Shown in pieces: positions 51-17,068 of a DNA stretch of 17,068 nucleotides. The position numbers were made by a program, and so were the translations under genes. Under the pieces are notes generated by a model. It saw only the letters and a program-made list of their open reading frames with translations, did no database searches and had not been told where the DNA came from. Source of the DNA: Pseudomonadota bacterium (lineage in GTDB: Bacteria > Pseudomonadota > Gammaproteobacteria > Pseudomonadales > Pseudomonadaceae); contig JAEYXX010000158.1 in the NCBI GenBank assembly GCA_023431055.1, forward strand, positions 1-17,068. The letters are read 5' to 3'. Numbering within the stretch: the first letter of the stretch is position 1; every line of letters begins with the position of its first letter.

Positions 51-59
51 GTGACCGCC

Positions 60-2912
<2,853 letters not shown>

Positions 2913-2922
2913 GCGCGCTTGT

Positions 2923-3020
2923 CTCCCCTCTCCCATTTATGGGAGAGGAGCCGGGGGAGAGGGTAAAGCGGTTGTCTACGCAGCCCCCTCTCCCTAACCC
3001 TCTCCCCGAGGGGAGAGGGA
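2923..3020. repeat. Palindromic C/T-rich REP-like repeats between gcvP and glyA
   Basis: This stretch starts ten bases after the gcvP stop and holds alternating CCCTCTCCC and GGGAGAGGG words. Two hairpins are clear: CCTCTCCCA (2927-2935) with TGGGAGAGG (2940-2948), and a perfect 10-bp stem CCCTCTCCCC (2998-3007) with GGGGAGAGGG (3010-3019). An extra GGGGAGAGGG at 2954-2963 can pair with either C-rich arm, so alternative folds are possible. Such words are common as dispersed intergenic repeats in proteobacteria. Neither hairpin is followed by a T-tract. The rest of the gap to glyA (3021-3110) holds a weaker stem CCCC/GGGG (3054-3066) with a short T-run at 3073-3077, a possible weak terminator or attenuator, and the glyA ribosome-binding region. 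Confidence 0.75.
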
Positions 3021-3110
3021 ACCGTTCTTCGCTTCATCCAGTTTCTTTCGGCTCCCCTTACCGGGGCGGGCCTTTTTCATCCCGAGAAAAACGATAAAGA
3101 GGGCCTCACC

Positions 3111-4364
<1,254 letters not shown>

Positions 4365-4433
4365 TACCCGACTGACCACGGGCCGCACGTCGGCCCCAAC
4401 CGGTGCGCGCGACGCACTCAACAGGAAATCGAC

Positions 4434-5558
4434 ATGACCACTGAAACTCTCGCCAAGACTCCGCTGCACGCCCTGCACCTCGAACTCGGCGCGCGCATGG
4501 TGCCCTTCGCCGGCTATGACATGCCCGTACAGTACCCGCTGGGCGTGATGAAGGAGCACCTGCACACCCGCGACGCCGCCGGCCTGTTCGACGTCTCGCA
4601 CATGGGCCAGGTCCTGCTGCGTGGTGAGAACGCTGCACGTGCTCTGGAAACCCTGGTGCCGGTGGATATCATCGATCTGCCACTGGGTACACAGCGCTAC
4701 GCCATGTTCACCGACGCCCAGGGCGGCATCCTCGACGACCTGATGGTCGCCAACCTGGGCGACGACACCCTGTACCTGGTGGTCAACGCCGCCTGCAAGG
4801 AGCAGGACCTGGCCCACCTGCAGAAACATATTGGCGAGCAGTGCCAGATCGAGAGCCTGTTCGAGGAGCGCGCCCTGCTCGCCCTGCAAGGCCCGAAGGC
4901 GGCTGAGGTTCTGGCCCGACTGGCACCGGAAGTGAGCAAGATGACCTTCATGCAGGTGGCCCGCGTGCGACTGCTGGGCAGCGAGTGCATCGTCAGCCGC
5001 AGCGGCTACACCGGCGAAGATGGCTTCGAGATTTCCGTCGCCGTCGACCAGGCCGAAGCCCTGGCCCGCAGCCTGCTGGCCGAGGCCGAAGTCGAGGCTA
5101 TTGGCCTCGGCGCGCGTGACTCGCTGCGCCTGGAAGCCGGCCTGTGCCTCTATGGCCATGACATGAGCAGCGCCACCACGCCGATCGAAGCCAGCCTGCT
5201 GTGGGCGATCTCCAAGGTGCGCCGCGCTGACGGCGAGCGTGCCGGCAACTTCCCGGGCGCCGAGCGCGTATTCGAGCAACAGCAGAAAGGTGTAGCGCGC
5301 AAACGTGTCGGCCTGCTGCCGCAGGAACGCGTACCGGTGCGCGAAGGTGCGGAAATCGTCGATGCCGACGGCACCGTGATCGGCCAGGTAAGCAGCGGCG
5401 GCTTCGGTCCGACTCTCGGTGCACCGGTCGCGATGGGTTACGTCAATGCCAGCCACACCGCCATCGACAGCGACGTCTGGGCCGTGGTACGCGGTAAACG
5501 CGTGGCGATGAAAGTGGCCAAGACCCCATTCGTGCCGCAGCGTTACTACCGCGGCTGA
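4434..5558 (+). CDS. gcvT: Aminomethyltransferase, T protein of glycine cleavage
   Basis: GcvT transfers the methylene carbon from aminomethyl-lipoyl GcvH to tetrahydrofolate and releases ammonia. The 374-residue protein is of usual length. The folate-binding GcvT domain fills the N-terminal two thirds, with VPFAGYDMPVQYP near residue 25, FDVSHMGQ near 52, the catalytic aspartate at D101 in GGILDDLMV (same position as E. coli), SGYTGEDGFEIS, and GARDSLRLEAGLCLYGHDM from residue 226. The C-terminal barrel domain contains SSGGFGPTLG. The start at 4434 is supported by AGGAAA about eight bases upstream. The 69-bp gap after glyA holds only a small GGGCCG/CGGCCC stem (4380-4396). In P. aeruginosa the serine dehydratase gene sdaA lies between glyA2 and gcvT2; it is absent here. 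Confidence 0.96.
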   Translation: MTTETLAKTPLHALHLELGARMVPFAGYDMPVQYPLGVMKEHLHTRDAAGLFDVSHMGQVLLRGENAARALETLVPVDIIDLPLGTQRYAMFTDAQGGILDDLMVANLGDDTLYLVVNAACKEQDLAHLQKHIGEQCQIESLFEERALLALQGPKAAEVLARLAPEVSKMTFMQVARVRLLGSECIVSRSGYTGEDGFEISVAVDQAEALARSLLAEAEVEAIGLGARDSLRLEAGLCLYGHDMSSATTPIEASLLWAISKVRRADGERAGNFPGAERVFEQQQKGVARKRVGLLPQERVPVREGAEIVDADGTVIGQVSSGGFGPTLGAPVAMGYVNASHTAIDSDVWAVVRGKRVAMKVAKTPFVPQRYYRG

Positions 5559-9459: not shown

Positions 9460-10590
9460 TCAGTCACGCAACTTGCCGACCATCTGCGCCAGCACCGTCA
9501 ACACGTCCTGCCCCAGCTTCCGTGAGCGAGCGCCGTTCCAGCCAGTACCTGGCTGCGGGCTGTCATCGTGGTCCTTGAATGGCATTTCGATGGTGAACGA
9601 CAGGCAATCGAAGGCTTCGCCCACCGCGTTGCAGGCCAGGGTCAGGTTGGCCTGGCCCGGTTCGTCGCGCGGGTAGCCGAAACGGGTCTGGAACTCCGCG
9701 CCGATACCGACCAGACGGCTGCGGAAGTCCTCCTCCAGCGCAGCCAGACGCGGGGTATAACCTGGATTGCCTTCGCAGCCGGCGGTGAACACATGAGGAA
9801 TTTCCTCGTCACCGTGGATATCGAGAAACAGGTCGACGCCAATGCGCTGCATATGCTGCTGTACGAACAGCACCTCGGGGCTGCGCTCGGAGCTGGCCGA
9901 CTGCCAGGCGCGATTGAGGTCCTGTCCGGCGTAATTGGTGCGCAGATGACCGCGAGAAGCGCCATCCGGGTTCATGTTCGGCACTAGGTAGAACTCGGCC
10001 TCGCGCAGCAAGGCGGCGACCTCGGCATCCTGCGGATTCTGCAGGCGCTCGATCAACCCTTCCATGAACCATTCGGCCATGTGCTCGCCGGGGTGCTGCT
10101 GGGCGATGATCCACAGCTTGCGCGCAGTGTCAGTCTGGCCGCCAACGCGCAGCAGCTGAATATCGCGCCCTTCCAGGCTTCTGCCACAAGCCACCAGCTC
10201 GGCACCGCGTTCCAGCGCCTTGGCGATCAGGCGCTCATGCCGCGCCCGTGGGTAAGGCTCGAAATAGGCGAAGCGCACGCTCTCATGCCCGGCCTGCAAC
10301 TGGAAATGCAACTGACCGTCCTGGTAATGGGTCGGCACGCGAAACCAGTTCTGCTGATCGTAACTGGCCACAGCCTGGTAACCGTCCCAGGCGCCGTTAT
10401 AGGCCGATTGCCCGGCATTGCTCAGGCAAAAGCCATAATCCTGACCAGGCTGCAGGCCATCGACCTGAAAGTGGAACCACTGGAAGTGGTGGCTGTTGAG
10501 GTCCGGCCGCATGGCCAGCAACACATGCTGCGGGTCACTGGCATCGATGACCTGGATATTGCCGCTGTCGAAATCCGCACTAATCTTCAT
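9460..10590 (-). CDS. M14 zinc carboxypeptidase, cytosolic carboxypeptidase-like
   Basis: This is a 376-residue metallo-carboxypeptidase of the bacterial branch of the cytosolic carboxypeptidases (CCP/AGTPBP1-like), the type whose structure is known from P. aeruginosa. Residues 1-115 form the CCP-specific N-terminal beta domain (WFHFQVDGLQPGQDYGF). The peptidase domain follows, with zinc ligands H166 and E169 in QQHPGEHMAEWF and H259 in DIHGDEE, a substrate-binding block NMNPDGASRGHLRTNYAGQDLNRAW (205-229), and catalytic E335 in FTIEMPFKD. All catalytic residues are present. There is no signal peptide, so it should be cytoplasmic. Eukaryotic relatives trim glutamates from tubulin; the bacterial substrate is not known to me. 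The ATG at 10590 has AAGAGG upstream. It diverges from the lipoprotein gene. Confidence 0.92.
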   Translation of the reverse strand: MKISADFDSGNIQVIDASDPQHVLLAMRPDLNSHHFQWFHFQVDGLQPGQDYGFCLSNAGQSAYNGAWDGYQAVASYDQQNWFRVPTHYQDGQLHFQLQAGHESVRFAYFEPYPRARHERLIAKALERGAELVACGRSLEGRDIQLLRVGGQTDTARKLWIIAQQHPGEHMAEWFMEGLIERLQNPQDAEVAALLREAEFYLVPNMNPDGASRGHLRTNYAGQDLNRAWQSASSERSPEVLFVQQHMQRIGVDLFLDIHGDEEIPHVFTAGCEGNPGYTPRLAALEEDFRSRLVGIGAEFQTRFGYPRDEPGQANLTLACNAVGEAFDCLSFTIEMPFKDHDDSPQPGTGWNGARSRKLGQDVLTVLAQMVGKLRD

Positions 10591-11355: not shown

Positions 11356-11782
11356 TCAGGGCTGCAGGTCGAACAGCGCCTTGCCGCTTTCCATATCGCA
11401 AGGCGCGGAGAAGTGCTCGTGAAAGATCAGCCAGCGACCGCCCTGGCGGCGCAGGCACTGGGTCACGCGCATCCAGCAGGTTTCCAGCTCGCCCTTGTCA
11501 TTGGTGCCGCCGCAGTGCAGCAGGTAATGAGTGACGCCAAGATCGCCCTCGGCGGTGAACGAACGTCGGCTCGTGCGGTTCGAAACGCCCTTCGCCGCTG
11601 CACATTTCCATGCAGGCCTGCCAATGCGCCTGGTATGCCGGGCGCCCCTGGAAGCGCAGCGGCCCCACAGCATCGTAGGCGACCACGCCTTCCACGTAGT
11701 GACCCATGATGCGTGCCACAGCCTTGCTGCGGCAGGCGTCGGTTCGACTGTTCAGTGCATCTTGCAGTTCATGCTGACTCAT
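11356..11782 (-). pseudogene. NTF2/SnoaL-like protein gene broken by a frameshift
   Basis: Reading from ATG 11782 (AAGGA upstream) gives MSQHELQDALNSRTDACRS to FEPHEPTFV, an NTF2/SnoaL-like small alpha-beta domain. The frame then goes astray. The continuation TAEGDLGVTHYLLHCGGTNDKGE to HEHFSAPCDMESGKALFDLQP is in another frame and ends at the stop 11356-11358. Removing one base near 11558-11559 (plus-strand GGTGAACGAA would become GGTGACGAA) restores TFVTAEGDLGV. The total length of 427 nt is one more than a multiple of three, fitting a single-base insertion; the intact protein would be about 141 residues. It overlaps the truncated YCII gene by 14 bp. A sequencing error is the alternative explanation. 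The enzymatic role of this family member is unknown. Confidence 0.8.
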
Positions 11783-12005
11783 ATCGATTTTCCTTCGTGC
11801 GTGGATTGGGTGACTCAATGGCCAGCTTGCCGCCGCGCATGCGCACGGTGGTGGCGGTCTGCACCGACTGCAGCGCCTCGGCGGCGAGCATGCGCCCGCT
11901 CTCCTGTACTGCATTGGCGTAGGCGAAGCACTCGCTGTCATGCGGGCTGTCGGGGGAGCTGTGCAGCTCCTGTTCGTTGGCGTAAACGAGACAGAGGTAT
12001 TTCAT
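11769..12005 (-). pseudogene. YCII-related (DGPF) protein gene, 3' truncated
   Basis: The ORF from ATG 12005 reads MKYLCLVYANEQEL to ESGRMLAAEALQSVQTATTVRMRGGKLAI, which is the N-terminal half of a YCII/DGPF-domain protein (PF03795). Family members normally continue with a TDGPFAETKE motif and about 50 more residues. Here that motif is missing and the frame ends after a short unrelated tail, giving 78 residues. The lost part is not found nearby in another frame, so a deletion is likelier than a frameshift. The tail runs into the ribosome-binding site and start of the NTF2-like gene, so the deletion may have fused them. In many bacteria DGPF genes neighbour an ECF sigma factor gene; none is seen here. 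Confidence 0.7.
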
Positions 12006-12205
12006 GGCGCGCTCCAGTTCCTGTGCGGTGGGTACTGGATAGTCGAACGCGACGAAGGTATTTCGACATTGGCCGGAAAAACATCGATGAAGCCGATGAA
12101 CGGTAGGGTGCGCCATACACACCGACCGCCCCCGTTTTGAGCCCGCCCCGTCTTGTGCACTGGCGATTAGAAGTCGGCCGGCCGCCTAGATGCGCGCAGC
12201 GAATC
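12006..12205. other. 200-bp gap with a REP-like fragment
   Basis: There is no gene here. The segment near 12102-12122 (GTAGGGTGCGCC followed by ACACACC) looks like a degraded half of a REP family that reads GTAGGGTGCGCC in pseudomonads. A GCCGGCCGGC-type GC-rich palindromic stretch lies near 12176-12186. No terminator with a T-tract is visible after the GntR gene. Confidence 0.4.
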
Positions 12206-12922
12206 CTATTCGGGCACTTCGACGCTGACGTGGATGGCGTCGTGGCGCCAGAACTCCAGGTCGCAGTCGATGATGCGCCCGTACTGGTCGCGGTTGACCC
12301 GGGTAATGCGCAGCGCCGGGCTGCCGGGCGCCACCCTGAGGCTGGCTGCGGCTTCGGCGTGCAGTGCGGTGGGCACCATGTCGAAACGCACGCGACCGTA
12401 GTGGATGCCGTACTCGCTGGCATACAGGTCGGTCAGCGAGCGAGTCAGGTCGAACTCGAGAATGCCGGGGAAGTAGGCCGGATTCAGGTAGTGCTCGACA
12501 TATAGCACCAGGCGCCCGTCGATGCGCCGCGCGCGGCACACCTGATAGACGCTCGACAGCGCAGGCAGCTCCAGCACCTGGCAGATTTCCGCGCTGGCCG
12601 GCATCAAGCGCGCACTCAGGACCTCGGTAGCCGGTACCCGCCCCTGCTCGGCGACCATGGCGTGGAAGTGGGTACGTACCAGAGGGTTGTAGGCCACCCG
12701 TTGCGGCGAAACGAACCAGCCACGACGCTCCTCGCGATAGACCAGCCCCTGCGCCTCCAACTGGCCGAGCGCCTCGCGCAGGGTGATGCGCGTGGTATCG
12801 AACAACTCACTGAGCTTGCGCTCGGCCGGCAACTTGCTGCCGGAGGGCAACAGGCCCCGGTCGATCTGCTCCTGTAACGCGCGGCAGATGATGGTGACGG
12901 CCCGTGGCGCTTCTTCGCGCAT
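12206..12922 (-). CDS. GntR-family regulator, HutC subfamily (UTRA domain)
   Basis: The 238-residue protein has an N-terminal GntR winged helix-turn-helix (about residues 8-75: ALQEQIDRGLLPSGSKLPAERKLSELFDTTRITLREALGQLEAQGLV, then the wing EERRGWFV). A C-terminal UTRA effector-binding domain follows (about 90-235, including YQVCRARRIDGRLVLYVEHYLNPAYFPGILEFDL and LEFWRHDAIHVSVEV). Members include PhnF, HutC and DasR/NagR, usually repressors released by a pathway metabolite. ATG 12922 is preferred over TTG 12925; GGGGAA lies upstream. It diverges from an ABC-transporter operon that it probably controls. A TGGACTAGTCCA palindrome 16 bp before its start suggests autoregulation, and a minus-strand Pho box suggests phosphate control. 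It resembles regulators of phosphonate uptake by context rather than by any diagnostic residue. Confidence 0.9.
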   Translation of the reverse strand: MREEAPRAVTIICRALQEQIDRGLLPSGSKLPAERKLSELFDTTRITLREALGQLEAQGLVYREERRGWFVSPQRVAYNPLVRTHFHAMVAEQGRVPATEVLSARLMPASAEICQVLELPALSSVYQVCRARRIDGRLVLYVEHYLNPAYFPGILEFDLTRSLTDLYASEYGIHYGRVRFDMVPTALHAEAAASLRVAPGSPALRITRVNRDQYGRIIDCDLEFWRHDAIHVSVEVPE

Positions 12923-12937
12923 CAAAATTTCCCCTTT

Positions 12938-12949
12938 TGGACTAGTCCA
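12938..12949. promoter_or_regulatory. Candidate GntR/HutC operator 1
   Basis: TGGACTAGTCCA is a perfect 12-bp palindrome matching 10 of 12 positions of TGGTCTAGACCA, the known operator type of HutC-subfamily proteins such as DasR/NagR. It lies immediately upstream of the ribosome-binding site of the GntR gene. Confidence 0.65.
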
Positions 12950-12991
12950 GCCCCATCACAGGGCAAAAGTCACTTGCTCAGACGGGTTACA

Positions 12992-13025
12992 AGCCTAGGC
13001 AGTCTAGATGACTGATAGATGACAG
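12992..13025 (-). promoter_or_regulatory. Candidate Pho box and promoter facing the GntR gene
   Basis: Read on the minus strand, 13025-13008 is CTGTCATCTATCAGTCAT: two CTGTCAT-type half sites (7/7 and 6/7) separated by four bases, the PhoB-site spacing. Ten bases further is TAGGCT (12997-12992), a weak -10. A CAGTC/GACTG inverted repeat (13000-13014) overlaps it. Confidence 0.6.
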
Positions 13026-13152
13026 CCATGCTGCAAGCACGCCGCATGCCACTGTCACATCCGCTCACGGCCCGCGAAATCAGCTACTTATCCATGGTCT
13101 ACGCTTGATGAGCGCGCCAGTTGACTGCACCTAGACATCTGCCAGCCGTGGC

Positions 13153-13186
13153 CGGACATAAAACTGTCATCGAAGGCGCTTAGATT
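13153..13186 (+). promoter_or_regulatory. Pho box and promoter of the transporter operon
   Basis: CGGACATAAAACTGTCAT (13153-13170) matches 16 of 18 positions of the classical Pho box CTGTCATAAAACTGTCAT, with a perfect second half and perfect A-spacer. TAGATT (13181-13186), a 4/6 match to the -10, begins after exactly 10 bases, the geometry of PhoB-activated promoters in which the second half-site replaces the -35. Transcription would start near 13193. Confidence 0.82.
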
Positions 13187-13200
13187 GGCTCGGGTATTGC

Positions 13201-13212
13201 TGATCTAGACCA
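13201..13212. promoter_or_regulatory. Candidate GntR/HutC operator 2
   Basis: TGATCTAGACCA matches 11 of 12 positions of the HutC-type palindrome TGGTCTAGACCA. It lies 15 bp downstream of the predicted -10 of the Pho promoter, in the first transcribed bases, where a bound repressor would block initiation or elongation. It is 26 bp before the binding-protein start codon. Confidence 0.7.
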
Positions 13213-13238
13213 ACACTCTCACTGCAAAGGAGTTTCCA

Positions 13239-14297
13239 ATGAAACAACTGCTGCTGGCTTCACTGATGGGTTCGGCCATCGCCCTGGCGACTTCCGCCAT
13301 GGCCGAAGGCACCGACTTGCAGGCACTGGAACAGGCTGCACGCGCCGAAGGCGTGGTGAATAGCGTGGGGATGCCCGATAGCTGGGCCAACTGGAAGGAC
13401 ACCTGGAGCGACCTGAATAGCAAGTACGGCCTCAAGCACTCCGACACCGACATGAGCTCGGCACAGGAGATCGCCAAGTTCGCCGCCGAGAAGGACAATG
13501 CCACCGCCGATATTGGTGACGTCGGCGCCGCCTTTGGTCCCATCGCCGTGCAACAGGGCGTGACCCAGCCGTACAAGCCGAGCACCTGGGAACAGATCCC
13601 AAGCTGGGCCAAGGACGCCGATGGCCACTGGATGCTGGCCTACACCGGCTCCATCGCCTTCATCGTCAACAAGCAACTGGTCAAGGATGTACCGAAATCC
13701 TGGGCCGACCTGAAGAACGGCAAGTACCGCGTCGCCATCGGTGACGTCAGCGCCGCCGCCCAGGCCGTGAACGGCGTGCTGGCTGCCGCCATCGCCAACG
13801 GCGGTGACGAGAAAAACATCCAACCGGGCCTGGACTTCTTCGCCGCCATCGCCGAGCAGGGCCGCCTGTCGCTGTCCAACCCGACCATCCAGACCCTGGA
13901 GAAGGGTGAAGTGGAAGTCGGTATCGTCTGGGACTTCAACGGCCTGTCGTACCGCGACCAGATCGACCCCAACCGCTTCGAGGTGCTGATCCCCTCCGAT
14001 GGTTCGGTGATCTCCGGCTACACCACCATCATCAACAAGTACGCCAAGAACCCCAACGCGGCCAAGCTGGCGCGTGAGTACATCCTCTCCGACGCAGGCC
14101 AGATCAACCTGGCCAAAGGCAATGCCCGACCGATCCGCGCCGAGCACCTGACCCTGCCGGCCGAGGTGCAGGCCAAGCTGCTGCCCAACGAGCAGTACGC
14201 CAAGGTCAAGCCAATCGCCGACGCGGCTGCCTGGGAGGCCACCTCCAAGGCACTGCCACAGATGTGGCAAGAGAACGTGATCATCAATATGGAATAA
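13239..14297 (+). CDS. ABC transporter periplasmic substrate-binding protein
   Basis: A 352-residue extracellular solute-binding protein of the iron/thiamine/polyamine/2-aminoethylphosphonate-like class. A Sec signal peptide (cleavage AMA-EG after residue 22) sends it to the periplasm. The body has the expected two-lobe layout with GSIAFIVNKQLVKDVPKSWADLKNGKYRVAIGD near residues 132-169, VGIVWDFNGLSYRDQI, and EYILSDAGQINLAKGNARPIRAEH toward the C-terminus. The start is backed by AAAGGAG (13226-13232) six bases upstream. It is the first gene of an operon headed by a Pho box and a HutC-type operator. The ligand cannot be read off; the Pho box and the downstream phosphatase-superfamily hydrolase point to a phosphorus-containing compound such as a phosphonate or phosphoester. 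REP hairpins separate it from the next gene. Confidence 0.9.
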   Translation: MKQLLLASLMGSAIALATSAMAEGTDLQALEQAARAEGVVNSVGMPDSWANWKDTWSDLNSKYGLKHSDTDMSSAQEIAKFAAEKDNATADIGDVGAAFGPIAVQQGVTQPYKPSTWEQIPSWAKDADGHWMLAYTGSIAFIVNKQLVKDVPKSWADLKNGKYRVAIGDVSAAAQAVNGVLAAAIANGGDEKNIQPGLDFFAAIAEQGRLSLSNPTIQTLEKGEVEVGIVWDFNGLSYRDQIDPNRFEVLIPSDGSVISGYTTIINKYAKNPNAAKLAREYILSDAGQINLAKGNARPIRAEHLTLPAEVQAKLLPNEQYAKVKPIADAAAWEATSKALPQMWQENVIINME

Positions 14298-14443: not shown

Positions 14444-15250
14444 ATGCCTTCCAAGGTCATCCTCGTCGTGCTCGACGGCCTCAGCCACTCGGTCGCACAA
14501 CACGCCATGGGCCATCTGCACGCTTGGTGCGACGCCGGGCGCGCGGCCTTCTACCGCCTCGACTGCGAGCTGCCGGCGCTGTCGCGCCCGCTCTACGAGG
14601 CCATCCTCACTGGCGTGCGCCCCATCGACAGCGGCATCGTGCACAACGGCGTTTCGCGCCTGTCGCGCGAACGCAGCCTCTTTCATTACGCCCGCGATGC
14701 CGGTCTGAGCACCGCCGCCGCGGCCTATCACTGGGTCAGCGAGCTGTACAACCGCTCGCCCTTCGTCGCCGTGCGCGACCGGCATACCTGCGATGAATCG
14801 CTGCCGATCCAGCATGGCCACTTCTATTACGCCGACCACTACCCGGACTCGCACCTGTTCGTCGACGCCGAGAGCCTGCGTTTGCAGCACACGCCAGACC
14901 TGCTGCTGGTGCACCCGATGAACATCGACGACGCCGGCCACAAGCACGGCCTGGACAGTTCCCAGTATCGCAACGCCGCACGGATGGCCGATGTGCTGCT
15001 GGCGGACTACCTGCAGAACTGGATCGATGCAGGCTATCAGGTACTGGTCACCGCCGACCACGGCATGAACGTCGACCGCTCGCACAACGGCCTGCTGCCG
15101 GAAGAGCGCCAGGTGCCACTGTTCGTCATCGGTGATGCCTTCAGCCTCGATGCCAATGCGCGCCCACGCCAGCTCGAGCTGTGCGGCAGCATCTGCCAGT
15201 TGCTCGGTGTACCGCACGACAAACCCTACTGCGCGGAGTTGCTGAAATGA
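14444..15250 (+). CDS. Alkaline phosphatase superfamily hydrolase (phosphodiesterase/pyrophosphatase-like)
   Basis: The 268-residue protein belongs to the type I phosphodiesterase/nucleotide pyrophosphatase branch (PF01663), which also includes phosphonoacetate hydrolase. Metal-site residues are visible in order: D11 in VVLDGLS, a probable serine nucleophile S47 in LPALSRPLYEAILTG, D162 and H166 in HPMNIDDAGHKHG, D205-H206 in VTADHGMN, and H214. All expected residues of the two-metal site appear present. There is no signal peptide, so it should act in the cytoplasm on a substrate after import. It is shorter than most NPP enzymes. AGGATT precedes the ATG at 14444. Its stop overlaps the next start as ATGA (15247-15250), so it is co-translated with the permease, tying it to the transporter. 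Phosphodiester, pyrophosphate or phosphonate specificity is undecided. Confidence 0.87.
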   Translation: MPSKVILVVLDGLSHSVAQHAMGHLHAWCDAGRAAFYRLDCELPALSRPLYEAILTGVRPIDSGIVHNGVSRLSRERSLFHYARDAGLSTAAAAYHWVSELYNRSPFVAVRDRHTCDESLPIQHGHFYYADHYPDSHLFVDAESLRLQHTPDLLLVHPMNIDDAGHKHGLDSSQYRNAARMADVLLADYLQNWIDAGYQVLVTADHGMNVDRSHNGLLPEERQVPLFVIGDAFSLDANARPRQLELCGSICQLLGVPHDKPYCAELLK

Positions 15251-16092
15251 GCGCGCCACCCTCCCTGCGTCGCTGGCTGCCGCTGTTGTGCCTGCTGCCC
15301 TTCACCCTGTTCTTCGTGGTGTTCCAGGTGGCGCCGCTGGTGTGGGTGGCGGTCAACAGTCTGAACAGCCCCGCTGGCTGGGGCCTGGGCAATTTCGAGA
15401 AGATCTTCGCCTCCAGGTTCTATATGCAGGCGATCAAGCACAGCCTGGAAATCGCCTTCTGGTCGAGCCTGTTTGGCATGGCCATCGCCATCCTCGGCAG
15501 CTACTCGCTGCGCCAGGTGGACTCGAAGCTGCGCAACTTCGTCATCGCCTTCTCCAACATGACCAGCAACTTCGCCGGGGTGCCGCTGGCCTTCGCCTTC
15601 ATCATCCTGCTTGGCTTCAACGGCGCGCTGACCATCCTGCTCAAGCAGATGGGGGTGATCGAGGACTTCAACCTCTACTCCAAGACCGGCCTGATCGTCC
15701 TTTACACCTACTTCCAGATTCCCCTCGGCGTCTTGCTGCTCTACCCGGCCTTCGACGCCCTGCGCGAAGACTGGCGCGAGTCGGCCGAACTGCTCGGCGC
15801 CAGCACCTGGCAGTTCTGGCGGCACATTGGCCTGCCGGTGCTGACCCCGGCGTTGCTCGGCACCTTCGTCATCCTCCTGGCCAACGCCCTGGGCGCCTAT
15901 GCCACGGTGTATGCACTGACCACCGGCAACTTCAACATCCTGCCGATCCGTATCGCGGCGATGGTCTCCGGCGACATCTTCCTCGACCCGAACATGGCCA
16001 GCGCATTGGCCATGGTGCTGGTCGGCCTGATGACCCTGATCACCCTCGTCCACCAATGGCTGCTGCGCCGGAGCTACCATGTCACCCGCTGA
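15247..16092 (+). CDS. ABC transporter permease 1
   Basis: This 281-residue inner-membrane protein of the binding-protein-dependent permease family (BPD_transp_1) has about six hydrophobic segments: LPLLCLLPFTLFFVVFQVAPLVWVAV at the N-terminus, then stretches around SLFGMAIAILGSY, GVPLAFAFIILLGF, GLIVLYTYFQIPLGVLLLY, LLGTFVILLANALGAY and a final ALAMVLVGLMTLITL. The cytoplasmic EAA loop that contacts the ATPase is ESAELLGASTWQFWRHIGLP from residue 178. The start at 15247 forms an ATGA overlap with the hydrolase stop; a longer in-frame ORF reaching upstream to 15181 is not needed. The 3' end overlaps permease 2 by 14 bp. Confidence 0.92.
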   Translation: MSAPPSLRRWLPLLCLLPFTLFFVVFQVAPLVWVAVNSLNSPAGWGLGNFEKIFASRFYMQAIKHSLEIAFWSSLFGMAIAILGSYSLRQVDSKLRNFVIAFSNMTSNFAGVPLAFAFIILLGFNGALTILLKQMGVIEDFNLYSKTGLIVLYTYFQIPLGVLLLYPAFDALREDWRESAELLGASTWQFWRHIGLPVLTPALLGTFVILLANALGAYATVYALTTGNFNILPIRIAAMVSGDIFLDPNMASALAMVLVGLMTLITLVHQWLLRRSYHVTR

Positions 16093-16873
16093 AAAACGCT
16101 CGCCGCTGTTCCACCAACTGGTGGTCTACCTGCTGTTTCTGATCCTGCTGCTGCCGCTGCTCGGCACCCTGGTGTACTCGCTGTCCACCAGTTGGTCGGC
16201 GACCATCCTGCCCAGCGGGTTCACCTTCAAGTGGTACGTGGCGCTATGGAGCGATGCACGCTTTCTCGCCGCCTTCGGTCGCTCGCTGCTGGTGTGCTTC
16301 GGCGCCCTGGCGCTGGCACTGCTGCTGATCCTGCCGCTGCTGTTCGTGGTCAACTACCACTTCCCCAAGCTCGACGGCGTGATGAACGTGCTGATCCTGC
16401 TGCCGTTCGCCATTCCGCCGGTGGTCTCATCGGTGGGGCTAATGCAGCTGTTCGCGTCCGGCCCGCTGCCGATCCTCGGTACGCCATGGATCCTGATCGG
16501 CTGCTACTTCACCATCGCCCTGCCCTTCATGTACCGGGCCATCACCAACAACCTGCAGGCGATCAACCTGCGCGACCTGATGGACGCCGCCCACCTGCTC
16601 GGCGCCAGCACCTGGCGCGCGGCCTTCATGGTGGTGCTGCCGAATCTGCGCAAGGGTTTGATGGTGTCGGTGTTCCTGTCCTTCAGCTTCCTGTTCGGCG
16701 AATTCGTTTTCGCCAACCTGCTGGTGGGCAGCCGCTACGAGACGCTGCAGGTGTACCTGTACAACATGCGCAACGACAGCGGCCATTTCACCAGCGCCCT
16801 GGTGATCTCCTATTTCATGTTCGTGCTGCTGATGACCTGGGCAGCCAACCGTCTGAACAAGGACAAGTCATGA
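16079..16873 (+). CDS. ABC transporter permease 2
   Basis: The second 264-residue permease of the same importer would pair with permease 1. Hydrophobic segments include LVVYLLFLILLLPLLGTLVYSL, a LLVCFGALALALLLILPLLFVV stretch, VLILLPFAIPPVVSSVGLM, ILIGCYFTIALPFMY, VSVFLSFSFLFGEFVFANLL and a C-terminal VISYFMFVLLMTWA. The EAA loop is MDAAHLLGASTWRAAFMVVLPNLRKG from residue 168. It starts inside the end of permease 1 (14-bp overlap) and its stop overlaps the ATPase start as ATGA (16870-16873), indicating tight translational coupling. Confidence 0.92.
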   Translation: MSPAEKRSPLFHQLVVYLLFLILLLPLLGTLVYSLSTSWSATILPSGFTFKWYVALWSDARFLAAFGRSLLVCFGALALALLLILPLLFVVNYHFPKLDGVMNVLILLPFAIPPVVSSVGLMQLFASGPLPILGTPWILIGCYFTIALPFMYRAITNNLQAINLRDLMDAAHLLGASTWRAAFMVVLPNLRKGLMVSVFLSFSFLFGEFVFANLLVGSRYETLQVYLYNMRNDSGHFTSALVISYFMFVLLMTWAANRLNKDKS

Positions 16874-17068
16874 GTTTTCTGCACATTCAGAACCTGCACA
16901 AAAGCTACGGCCCGACCCGTATCTTCACCGACATCAATATCGAGATCGGCCAGGGTCAGTTCATCACCCTGCTCGGCCCCTCCGGCTGCGGTAAATCCAC
17001 CCTACTGCGCTGTATTGCAGGCCTGACGGAGGTCGACGGAGGGCAGATCCTGCTGGACGGCGAGGACC
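16870..17068 (+). CDS. ABC transporter ATP-binding protein, N-terminal part (cut by window edge)
   Basis: The first 66 codons of the importer ATPase are visible and run off the right edge. The sequence MSFLHIQNLHKSYGPTRIF has the aromatic A-loop tyrosine (Y13) and is followed by the Walker A motif GPSGCGKST (residues 36-44), typical of the polyamine/iron/phosphonate-type ATPases. The Q-loop, signature and Walker B motifs lie outside the window. It starts in an ATGA overlap with permease 2, completing the set of parts for one importer. Confidence 0.93.
   Translation, partial: MSFLHIQNLHKSYGPTRIFTDINIEIGQGQFITLLGPSGCGKSTLLRCIAGLTEVDGGQILLDGED

Follow-up and report, generated by a model that had tools for sequence, protein, structure and literature searches.

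A conserved PhoB-type promoter in a mirror-image control region with probable GntR operators at an aepSTU-type transporter locus

The 34-bp element located at 13153-13186, upstream of a transporter operon in the 17,068-nucleotide stretch analysed here (the window, at its full length), is probably a PhoB-dependent promoter that forms one side of a mirror-image control region, in which PhoB and a GntR-family regulator would together constitute an AND gate. An initial annotation had placed the operon under phosphate-starvation control on account of this element. That finding is real and its interpretation is half right: control of the operon by PhoB is very likely, and PhoB is probably not its sole control.

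Results

Two divergent PhoB-type promoters share one control region

The element consists of a rightward Pho box, a 10-bp spacer (13171-13180, as read from the sequence) and a -10 element. The features of the control region, in order of position, are as follows.

12938..12949, no strand assigned: O2, a probable operator for GntR, perfect palindrome TGGACTAGTCCA within the presumed leader of gntR
12992..12997, minus strand: -10 element of gntR, TAGGCT (minus strand), exactly 10 bp past the minus-strand box
13008..13025, minus strand: second, better Pho box, upstream of gntR, CTGTCATCTATCAGTCAT, 13/14 half-site positions
13153..13170, plus strand: rightward Pho box, in the promoter of the aepS-like operon, CGGACATAAAACTGTCAT, matching at 12/14 half-site positions
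13181..13186, plus strand: -10 element TAGATT, exactly 10 bp past the Pho box
13201..13212, no strand assigned: probable GntR operator O1, TGATCTAGACCA, 14 nt downstream of the -10 element, conserved and at near-fixed spacing

Comparison of the rightward box with CTGTCAT-N4-CTGTCAT gave agreement at 12 of the 14 half-site positions, or at 16 of 18 when the A/T-rich linker was counted, so that both the match and the spacing to TAGATT given in the initial annotation were reproduced. Classical PhoB-activated promoters (pst, phoA type) carry GTCAT-like direct repeats with an 11-bp period and a -10 element ten bp further on, which is the spacing of PhoB promoters, and have no -35 element. The promoters of the window are alike in repeat period, -10 spacing and missing -35: two CTGTCAT-like direct repeats with an 11-bp period were found on each side, each pair was followed ten bp downstream by a -10 element, and a consensus scan of 12100-13400 found no sigma-70 promoter with a -35. 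They differ from the classical promoters, however, in that a conserved palindrome for a second regulator follows and in that the promoter is duplicated divergently for the regulator gene. On the gntR side, the box is an unambiguous direct repeat with the same 10-bp spacing as on the operon side. The control region is therefore a mirror image, comprising two divergent promoters, each with a Pho box, 10 bp, a -10 element and then a palindrome. The initial annotation was correct as to the rightward element, but overlooked the divergent box, which is the stronger of the two, as well as both probable GntR operators. In a published study, the P. aeruginosa PhoB motif is given as a pair of (T)GTCAT boxes separated by 5 nt (PMC4513871).

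Two further sequences were considered as extra GntR sites, GTCTAGAT at 13002-13009 and CCTAGACA at 13131-13138; both are present in some close relatives and neither is generally conserved in the upstream sequences printed, and they were set aside.

The paired box and -10 element exceed chance expectation

The Pho box alone, with up to three mismatches allowed, was found 3 times in the whole window against 1.08 expected, which is weak evidence because 17 of 200 shuffles also reach 3. This count, together with the description of the substrate-binding protein AepS of P. putida BIRD-1 as constitutive (PMC8316502), would fit a chance resemblance in front of a constitutive operon. Such a reading is scarcely credible, as shuffles, genome controls and conservation are all contrary to it; a chance match had already been largely refuted and was ruled out on these three grounds. 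At a threshold of at least 12/14 the window holds two matches (13153-13170 on the plus strand and 13008-13025 on the minus strand), whereas 500 dinucleotide shuffles gave a mean of 0.09 and a single shuffle that reached two. When TANNNT was additionally required 10 bp downstream, both real matches were retained, and two matches were reached neither in the 500 window shuffles nor when the 313-bp intergenic region was shuffled 5000 times.

The composite pattern (box, N10 and TANNNT, with up to three mismatches) was then counted in five related genomes picked by the analyst (G001, G078, G013, G113 and G064), giving 18, 21, 15, 17 and 20 matches, respectively, versus 4, 3, 1, 1 and 2 for the same pattern reversed. 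Downstream frames were inspected for 14 of the 30 matches fetched. One match in G078 precedes pstS (L210, above the TIGR02136 cut-off) and one in G064 precedes PPK2 (L192, above the TIGR03707 cut-off), while three of the 14 are the aepS-like locus itself, copies of it or sites inside it. Other matches precede frames that by eye resemble FabD or HemB and show no obvious connection with phosphate. The composite pattern enriches for Pho genes, yet is not specific.

As a separate observation, a Pho box with a -10 element (0 to 2 mismatches) at 1501-1534 of L186, and in the relatives L190, L194 and L212, lies before a gene for a 154-residue protein that by eye is apparently exported and is a candidate unnamed member of the Pho regulon. 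The L186 copy of this protein had no NCBIfam match.

Both Pho boxes are conserved across the genus

The binding-protein gene was sought in 194 genomes and matched in 127, including 117 of the 119 genomes of the same genus. Loci were fetched for 68 of these 117, leaving out 49, together with two from other families. In all 69 same-genus promoters (the window and the 68 loci), the register of the box was retained, as were TANNTT and its exact spacing of 10 bases, positions 1, 2, 5 and 6 of the rightward -10 element (T, A, T and T) being invariant. Half-site scores of the rightward box were 12 (n=4), 11 (29), 10 (25), 9 (9) and 8 (2). The conservation script rewards a -10 element in its scoring, and the sequences as printed, which show the same register, therefore give the fairer view of it. 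Without this bonus, a best rightward score of at least 10/14 was obtained in 59 of 71 upstream regions compared with 6 of 630 size-matched stretches of coding sequence, and a best leftward score of at least 11/14 in 55 of 71 compared with 0 of 280; several of these bonus-free best matches are shifted from the register by 11 bases, and coding stretches are not an ideal null for an intergenic region.

The leftward box (at least 9/14) together with the TA of its -10 element was present in 68 of the 69 same-genus promoters, the exception being L039, and scored just 9/14 in ten. Of the two loci outside the genus, L069 carries a leftward box scoring 13/14, with related repeats on the rightward side, and no Pho boxes were found in the upstream region of L070. 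Both boxes are present in the P. aeruginosa copies L181 and L182. Lack of conservation in orthologous operons was one of the outcomes that the initial annotation had named as refuting it; the register is kept in every same-genus promoter examined, so that this check did not refute it, and the rightward site is regarded as a conserved PhoB-type element.

It was also considered that the rightward element might be the site of another regulator and merely resemble a Pho box. The window contains a perfect 4+4 dyad, GACA-N6-TGTC, and at half-site position 4 of the box an A replaces the T in 66 of 69 promoters, both of which would suit such a protein. A dyad binder is nevertheless disfavoured, because three orthologues (L008, L009 and L011) break the dyad (GCCAT) and yet keep the CAT of the direct repeat. 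The 10-bp spacing is moreover typical of PhoB promoters, and the gntR side pairs the same spacing with an unambiguous repeat. This alternative is accordingly rated as very improbable, and the element continues to be treated as a PhoB-type promoter.

Two palindromes are probable GntR operators

O1 and O2 are 12-base palindromes with a CTAG centre, one after each -10 element. In 72 upstream regions (the window, L001-L070 and L182), O1 was found with no or one mismatch in 70 and O2 in 69. Both were missing from L039 and L070, which have no gntR match either, and O2 was additionally missed in L009, where it has two mismatches; both are present in the P. aeruginosa copy L182. Among 180 loci, the only other binding-protein loci lacking gntR were L130 and L137, both on short contigs. 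O1 was located in 69 of 71 regions, lying 14 nt past the -10 element in 63 and 15-16 nt past it in six, whereas anything from 26 to 94 bases separates it from the ATG. As the spacing to the -10 element is near-fixed and that to the ATG variable, O1 belongs with the promoter and not with the gene. The distance of O2 from the gntR -10 element varies from 17 to 56.

At the level of whole genomes, the O1 pattern CTGAYCTAGACCA gave 57 matches, spread over 56 of 59 genomes, and in 56 cases the match lies at most 150 bp from the binding-protein gene; the reversed pattern still gave 24 matches in 18 of the 59. An orthologous gntR (best E < 1e-59) was found in exactly the same 56 genomes, G014, G028 and G044 having neither gene nor pattern. 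G044 is the sole informative case, because G014 and G028 are also without a binding-protein match. It has the binding protein, permeases, ATPase and a rightward Pho box (9/14), and is without gntR, the hydrolase, the leftward box and either palindrome. The single O2 variant TGGACTAGTCCA occurs at 16 sites in 15 of the 59 genomes, 15 of these sites at the aepS-like locus; its rarity is no argument, however, since the reversed pattern, another palindrome, is commoner and occurs in all 59.

From these patterns we infer, with good support, that GntR binds both palindromes. Repression of the transporter promoter by GntR is suggested by the position of O1, just downstream of the presumed start point. 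A wider GntR regulon was considered and rejected, as just one of the 57 O1-pattern matches in the 59 genomes lies away from the aepS-like locus, at 235002-235014 of contig 5 in G009. In G025 (contig 34, 195461-196151), the gntR match is split into two pieces that overlap, and operon and operator are still present.

By gene order the operon is of the aepSTU type

The genes flanking the control region are as follows.

12206..12922, minus strand: gntR, GntR/UTRA regulator close to PhnR (PF00392 and PF07702)
13239..14297, plus strand: aepS-like periplasmic substrate-binding protein (PF13343)
14444..15250, plus strand: alkaline-phosphatase-superfamily (type I phosphodiesterase) hydrolase (PF01663)
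15247..16092, plus strand: ABC permease 1 (PF00528)
16079..16873, plus strand: ABC permease 2 (PF00528; nearest NCBIfam model PhnV)
16870..17068, plus strand: ABC ATPase, truncated where the window ends

The gntR reading frame was listed from a TTG at 12925, and the adjacent ATG at 12922 was taken as the start; that of permease 1 was listed from 15181, the likelier start being the ATG at 15247, which overlaps the hydrolase stop (ATGA). The closest solved relative of the aepS-like protein by sequence is 5t1p (E=6.5e-150). Gene order is the same in P. aeruginosa L182, where the locus presumably corresponds to the PA3249-PA3255 numbering.

By gene order and annotation, the operon is of the type of aepSTU, the auxiliary 2-aminoethylphosphonate importer of P. 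putida BIRD-1. The locus has the corresponding layout, with a PF13343 binding protein beside gntR and an ATPase four genes on, and the order in the window agrees with that of PPUBIRD1_3890 (GntR), 3891 (binding protein) and 3895 (ATPase). Binding proteins named Pseudomonas putida, among the 120 of 4089 matches listed, are 91-93% identical to the L024 orthologue. In two reports, PPUBIRD1_3891 is phnD3 (PMC5082522) and AepS of AepSTU (PMC8316502).

There is also a likeness to phnVUTSRWX of Salmonella enterica, described as a 2-aminoethylphosphonate locus that belongs to the pho regulon and has a regulator of the GntR family, PhnR (PMC5351497). Unlike the PhnSTUV/PhnR system, however, the regulator, binding protein, permeases and L102 ATPase all score below the respective model cut-offs, mostly by far. 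The gntR product reached 288.2 bits against TIGR03337 PhnR (cut-off 296.75; P. aeruginosa copy, 283.5) and the aepS-like protein 51.4 bits against PhnS (TIGR03227, cut-off 395.3). Both permeases were far below the PhnU and PhnV cut-offs, permease 2 scoring 89.9 bits against PhnV (TIGR03255, cut-off 358.7), and for the full-length ATPase relative in L102 the nearest model was PhnT2, with a score under its cut-off. Furthermore, no phnWX was seen among the operon genes, which include an alkaline-phosphatase-superfamily hydrolase instead. Campylobacter cj0727-cj0732, mentioned in the literature as an operon without assigned function, was set aside as a relative.

Several neighbouring features were noted in passing. 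In L102 (Pseudomonas mendocina FFL34, a close relative), a HAD-IB phosphatase frame at 9557-10213 begins within the last part of the ATPase gene and could be a further gene of the operon; it scored 235 against the NCBIfam histidinol-phosphatase model, below the cut-off of 280. On the minus strand at 11356-12122 of the window, SnoaL-like and YCII-related frames, seemingly short or disrupted, lie between a Sel1-repeat gene and gntR. At 51-5558, gcvP-, glyA- and gcvT-like glycine-cleavage genes (named by eye) stand in a row, an ordinary arrangement.

Published expression data set AepS apart from regulator and ATPase

In the published tables for BIRD-1 (PMC5082522 Table 2), GntR 3890 rose in low Pi by a log2 value of 3.57 and ATPase 3895 by 4.72, and neither was detected in the phoBR mutant; AepS 3891 rose by 2.69 in the wild type and 2.31 in the phoBR mutant, and is listed as unaffected by PhoBR. 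Section 7 of PMC8316502 calls AepS constitutive under all conditions in BIRD-1. Phosphate-starvation control of the operon, as first proposed, is too simple a reading: it agrees with the conserved Pho box and with the PhoBR dependence of the BIRD-1 GntR and ATPase, but not with an AepS that is induced by low Pi without PhoBR and is elsewhere called constitutive.

These data would also fit an arrangement in which gntR is the main target of PhoB, expression of the operon depends chiefly on GntR and substrate, the rightward box is a minor input and AepS is near-constitutive. The divergent box is the better match (13/14 versus 12/14), and in the BIRD-1 reports GntR depends on PhoBR and AepS does not (PMC5082522), AepS being reported as constitutive (PMC8316502). 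Against this, the register of rightward box and -10 element is kept in 69/69 promoters, even in G044 despite its lack of gntR, and the operon's ATPase was not detected in the BIRD-1 phoBR mutant (PMC5082522 Table 2). This arrangement is judged unlikely, although far less so than the other two alternatives, and direct PhoB control of the transporter promoter is retained as the preferred reading.

In the literature covered, neither a Pho box nor a GntR operator was found described for an aepSTU-type locus; as the term AepSTU itself, subscription papers and supplements were outside that coverage, such a description may still exist. PMC8316502 uses neither of the words GntR and phosphodiesterase, PMC9311074 neither GntR nor Pho box, and the main texts of PMC4513871 and PMC7480860 make no mention of PA3249, PA3250 or PA325x. 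PA3249 is reported to bind the amrZ promoter in vitro (PMC8041468).

The cargo and the hydrolase

The initial annotation had also proposed that the cargo should supply phosphorus. This fits the genetics of aepSTU in BIRD-1, to which the operon is matched by gene order: section 7 of PMC8316502 describes aepSTU as helping 2-aminoethylphosphonate to serve as a P source, the genetic evidence being from BIRD-1 only. In the same account, a triple transporter mutant was unable to use 2-aminoethylphosphonate as P source, and the Pi-sensitive growth of a single aepSTU mutant was unaffected (PMC8316502).

PhnX scored above cut-off in 40 of the 59 genomes and PhnJ in 17. One or the other is present in 48 of the 57 genomes with the binding-protein gene, and most could therefore use 2-aminoethylphosphonate. 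The remaining nine operon-bearing genomes (G002, G004, G009, G011, G019, G025, G036, G040 and G055) have neither, and none has PhnA or PhnW above cut-off; these counts refer to a survey of PhnX, PhnJ, PhnA and PhnW, which left out PhnY/PhnZ, PalA and other routes. Free 2-aminoethylphosphonate may thus not be the main cargo.

The hydrolase is present in 55 of the 57 operon-bearing genomes, with no match in G044 and G055. Residues D11, S47, N68, D162, D163, H166, D205, H206 and H214 are invariant in nine diverse sequences, and are presumably those expected of a two-metal enzyme of the alkaline-phosphatase superfamily. The predicted structure model has a mean pLDDT of 86.2 and a pTM of 0.90, and no export signal was evident in the protein by eye. 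An ester of 2-aminoethylphosphonate, or another phosphodiester, is suggested as the cargo.

Relatives of the hydrolase also occur on plasmids, Enterococcus accounting for 179 of the 200 matching plasmid records. On the one plasmid examined, p1 of E. faecium Aus0085 (L183, 8893-13484), the relative lies between a binding protein and two permeases with an ATPase.

Discussion

In the mechanism proposed here, scarce phosphate would lead phosphorylated PhoB to activate the transporter operon and gntR alike. The UTRA-domain GntR protein would bind both palindromes and, at the site just downstream of the presumed start point, block the transporter promoter until its ligand, possibly a phosphonate or a phosphate ester, arrives. 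The result would be an AND gate permitting import only when phosphate is scarce and substrate available. The rise of AepS in low Pi without PhoBR is left unexplained by this scheme, because loss of GntR would give derepression and not, by itself, a remaining response to Pi.

A broader proposal is put forward tentatively and is, taken as a whole, rather doubtful. It holds that the locus forms a genus-wide incoherent feed-forward AND gate, in which PhoB would induce both the importer and a dedicated, single-locus GntR repressor that is relieved by the cargo, the latter being, in place of free 2-aminoethylphosphonate, one of its esters or another phosphodiester cleaved by the hydrolase after uptake. 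If true, such a gate would account in part for AepS seeming constitutive.

Each control element is of a known kind, and it is their combination, together with the conflict with the published constitutive view, that is the useful part. The aepSTU system of BIRD-1 was published as constitutive, whereas the locus described here carries a double Pho-box and operator region, whose composition names the exact sites to mutate. The hydrolase, which PMC8316502 leaves unmentioned, is a likely key to the identity of the cargo. With two Pho boxes and two probable operators, the importer would answer to two signals, contrary to the view of a constitutive minor system in P. putida.
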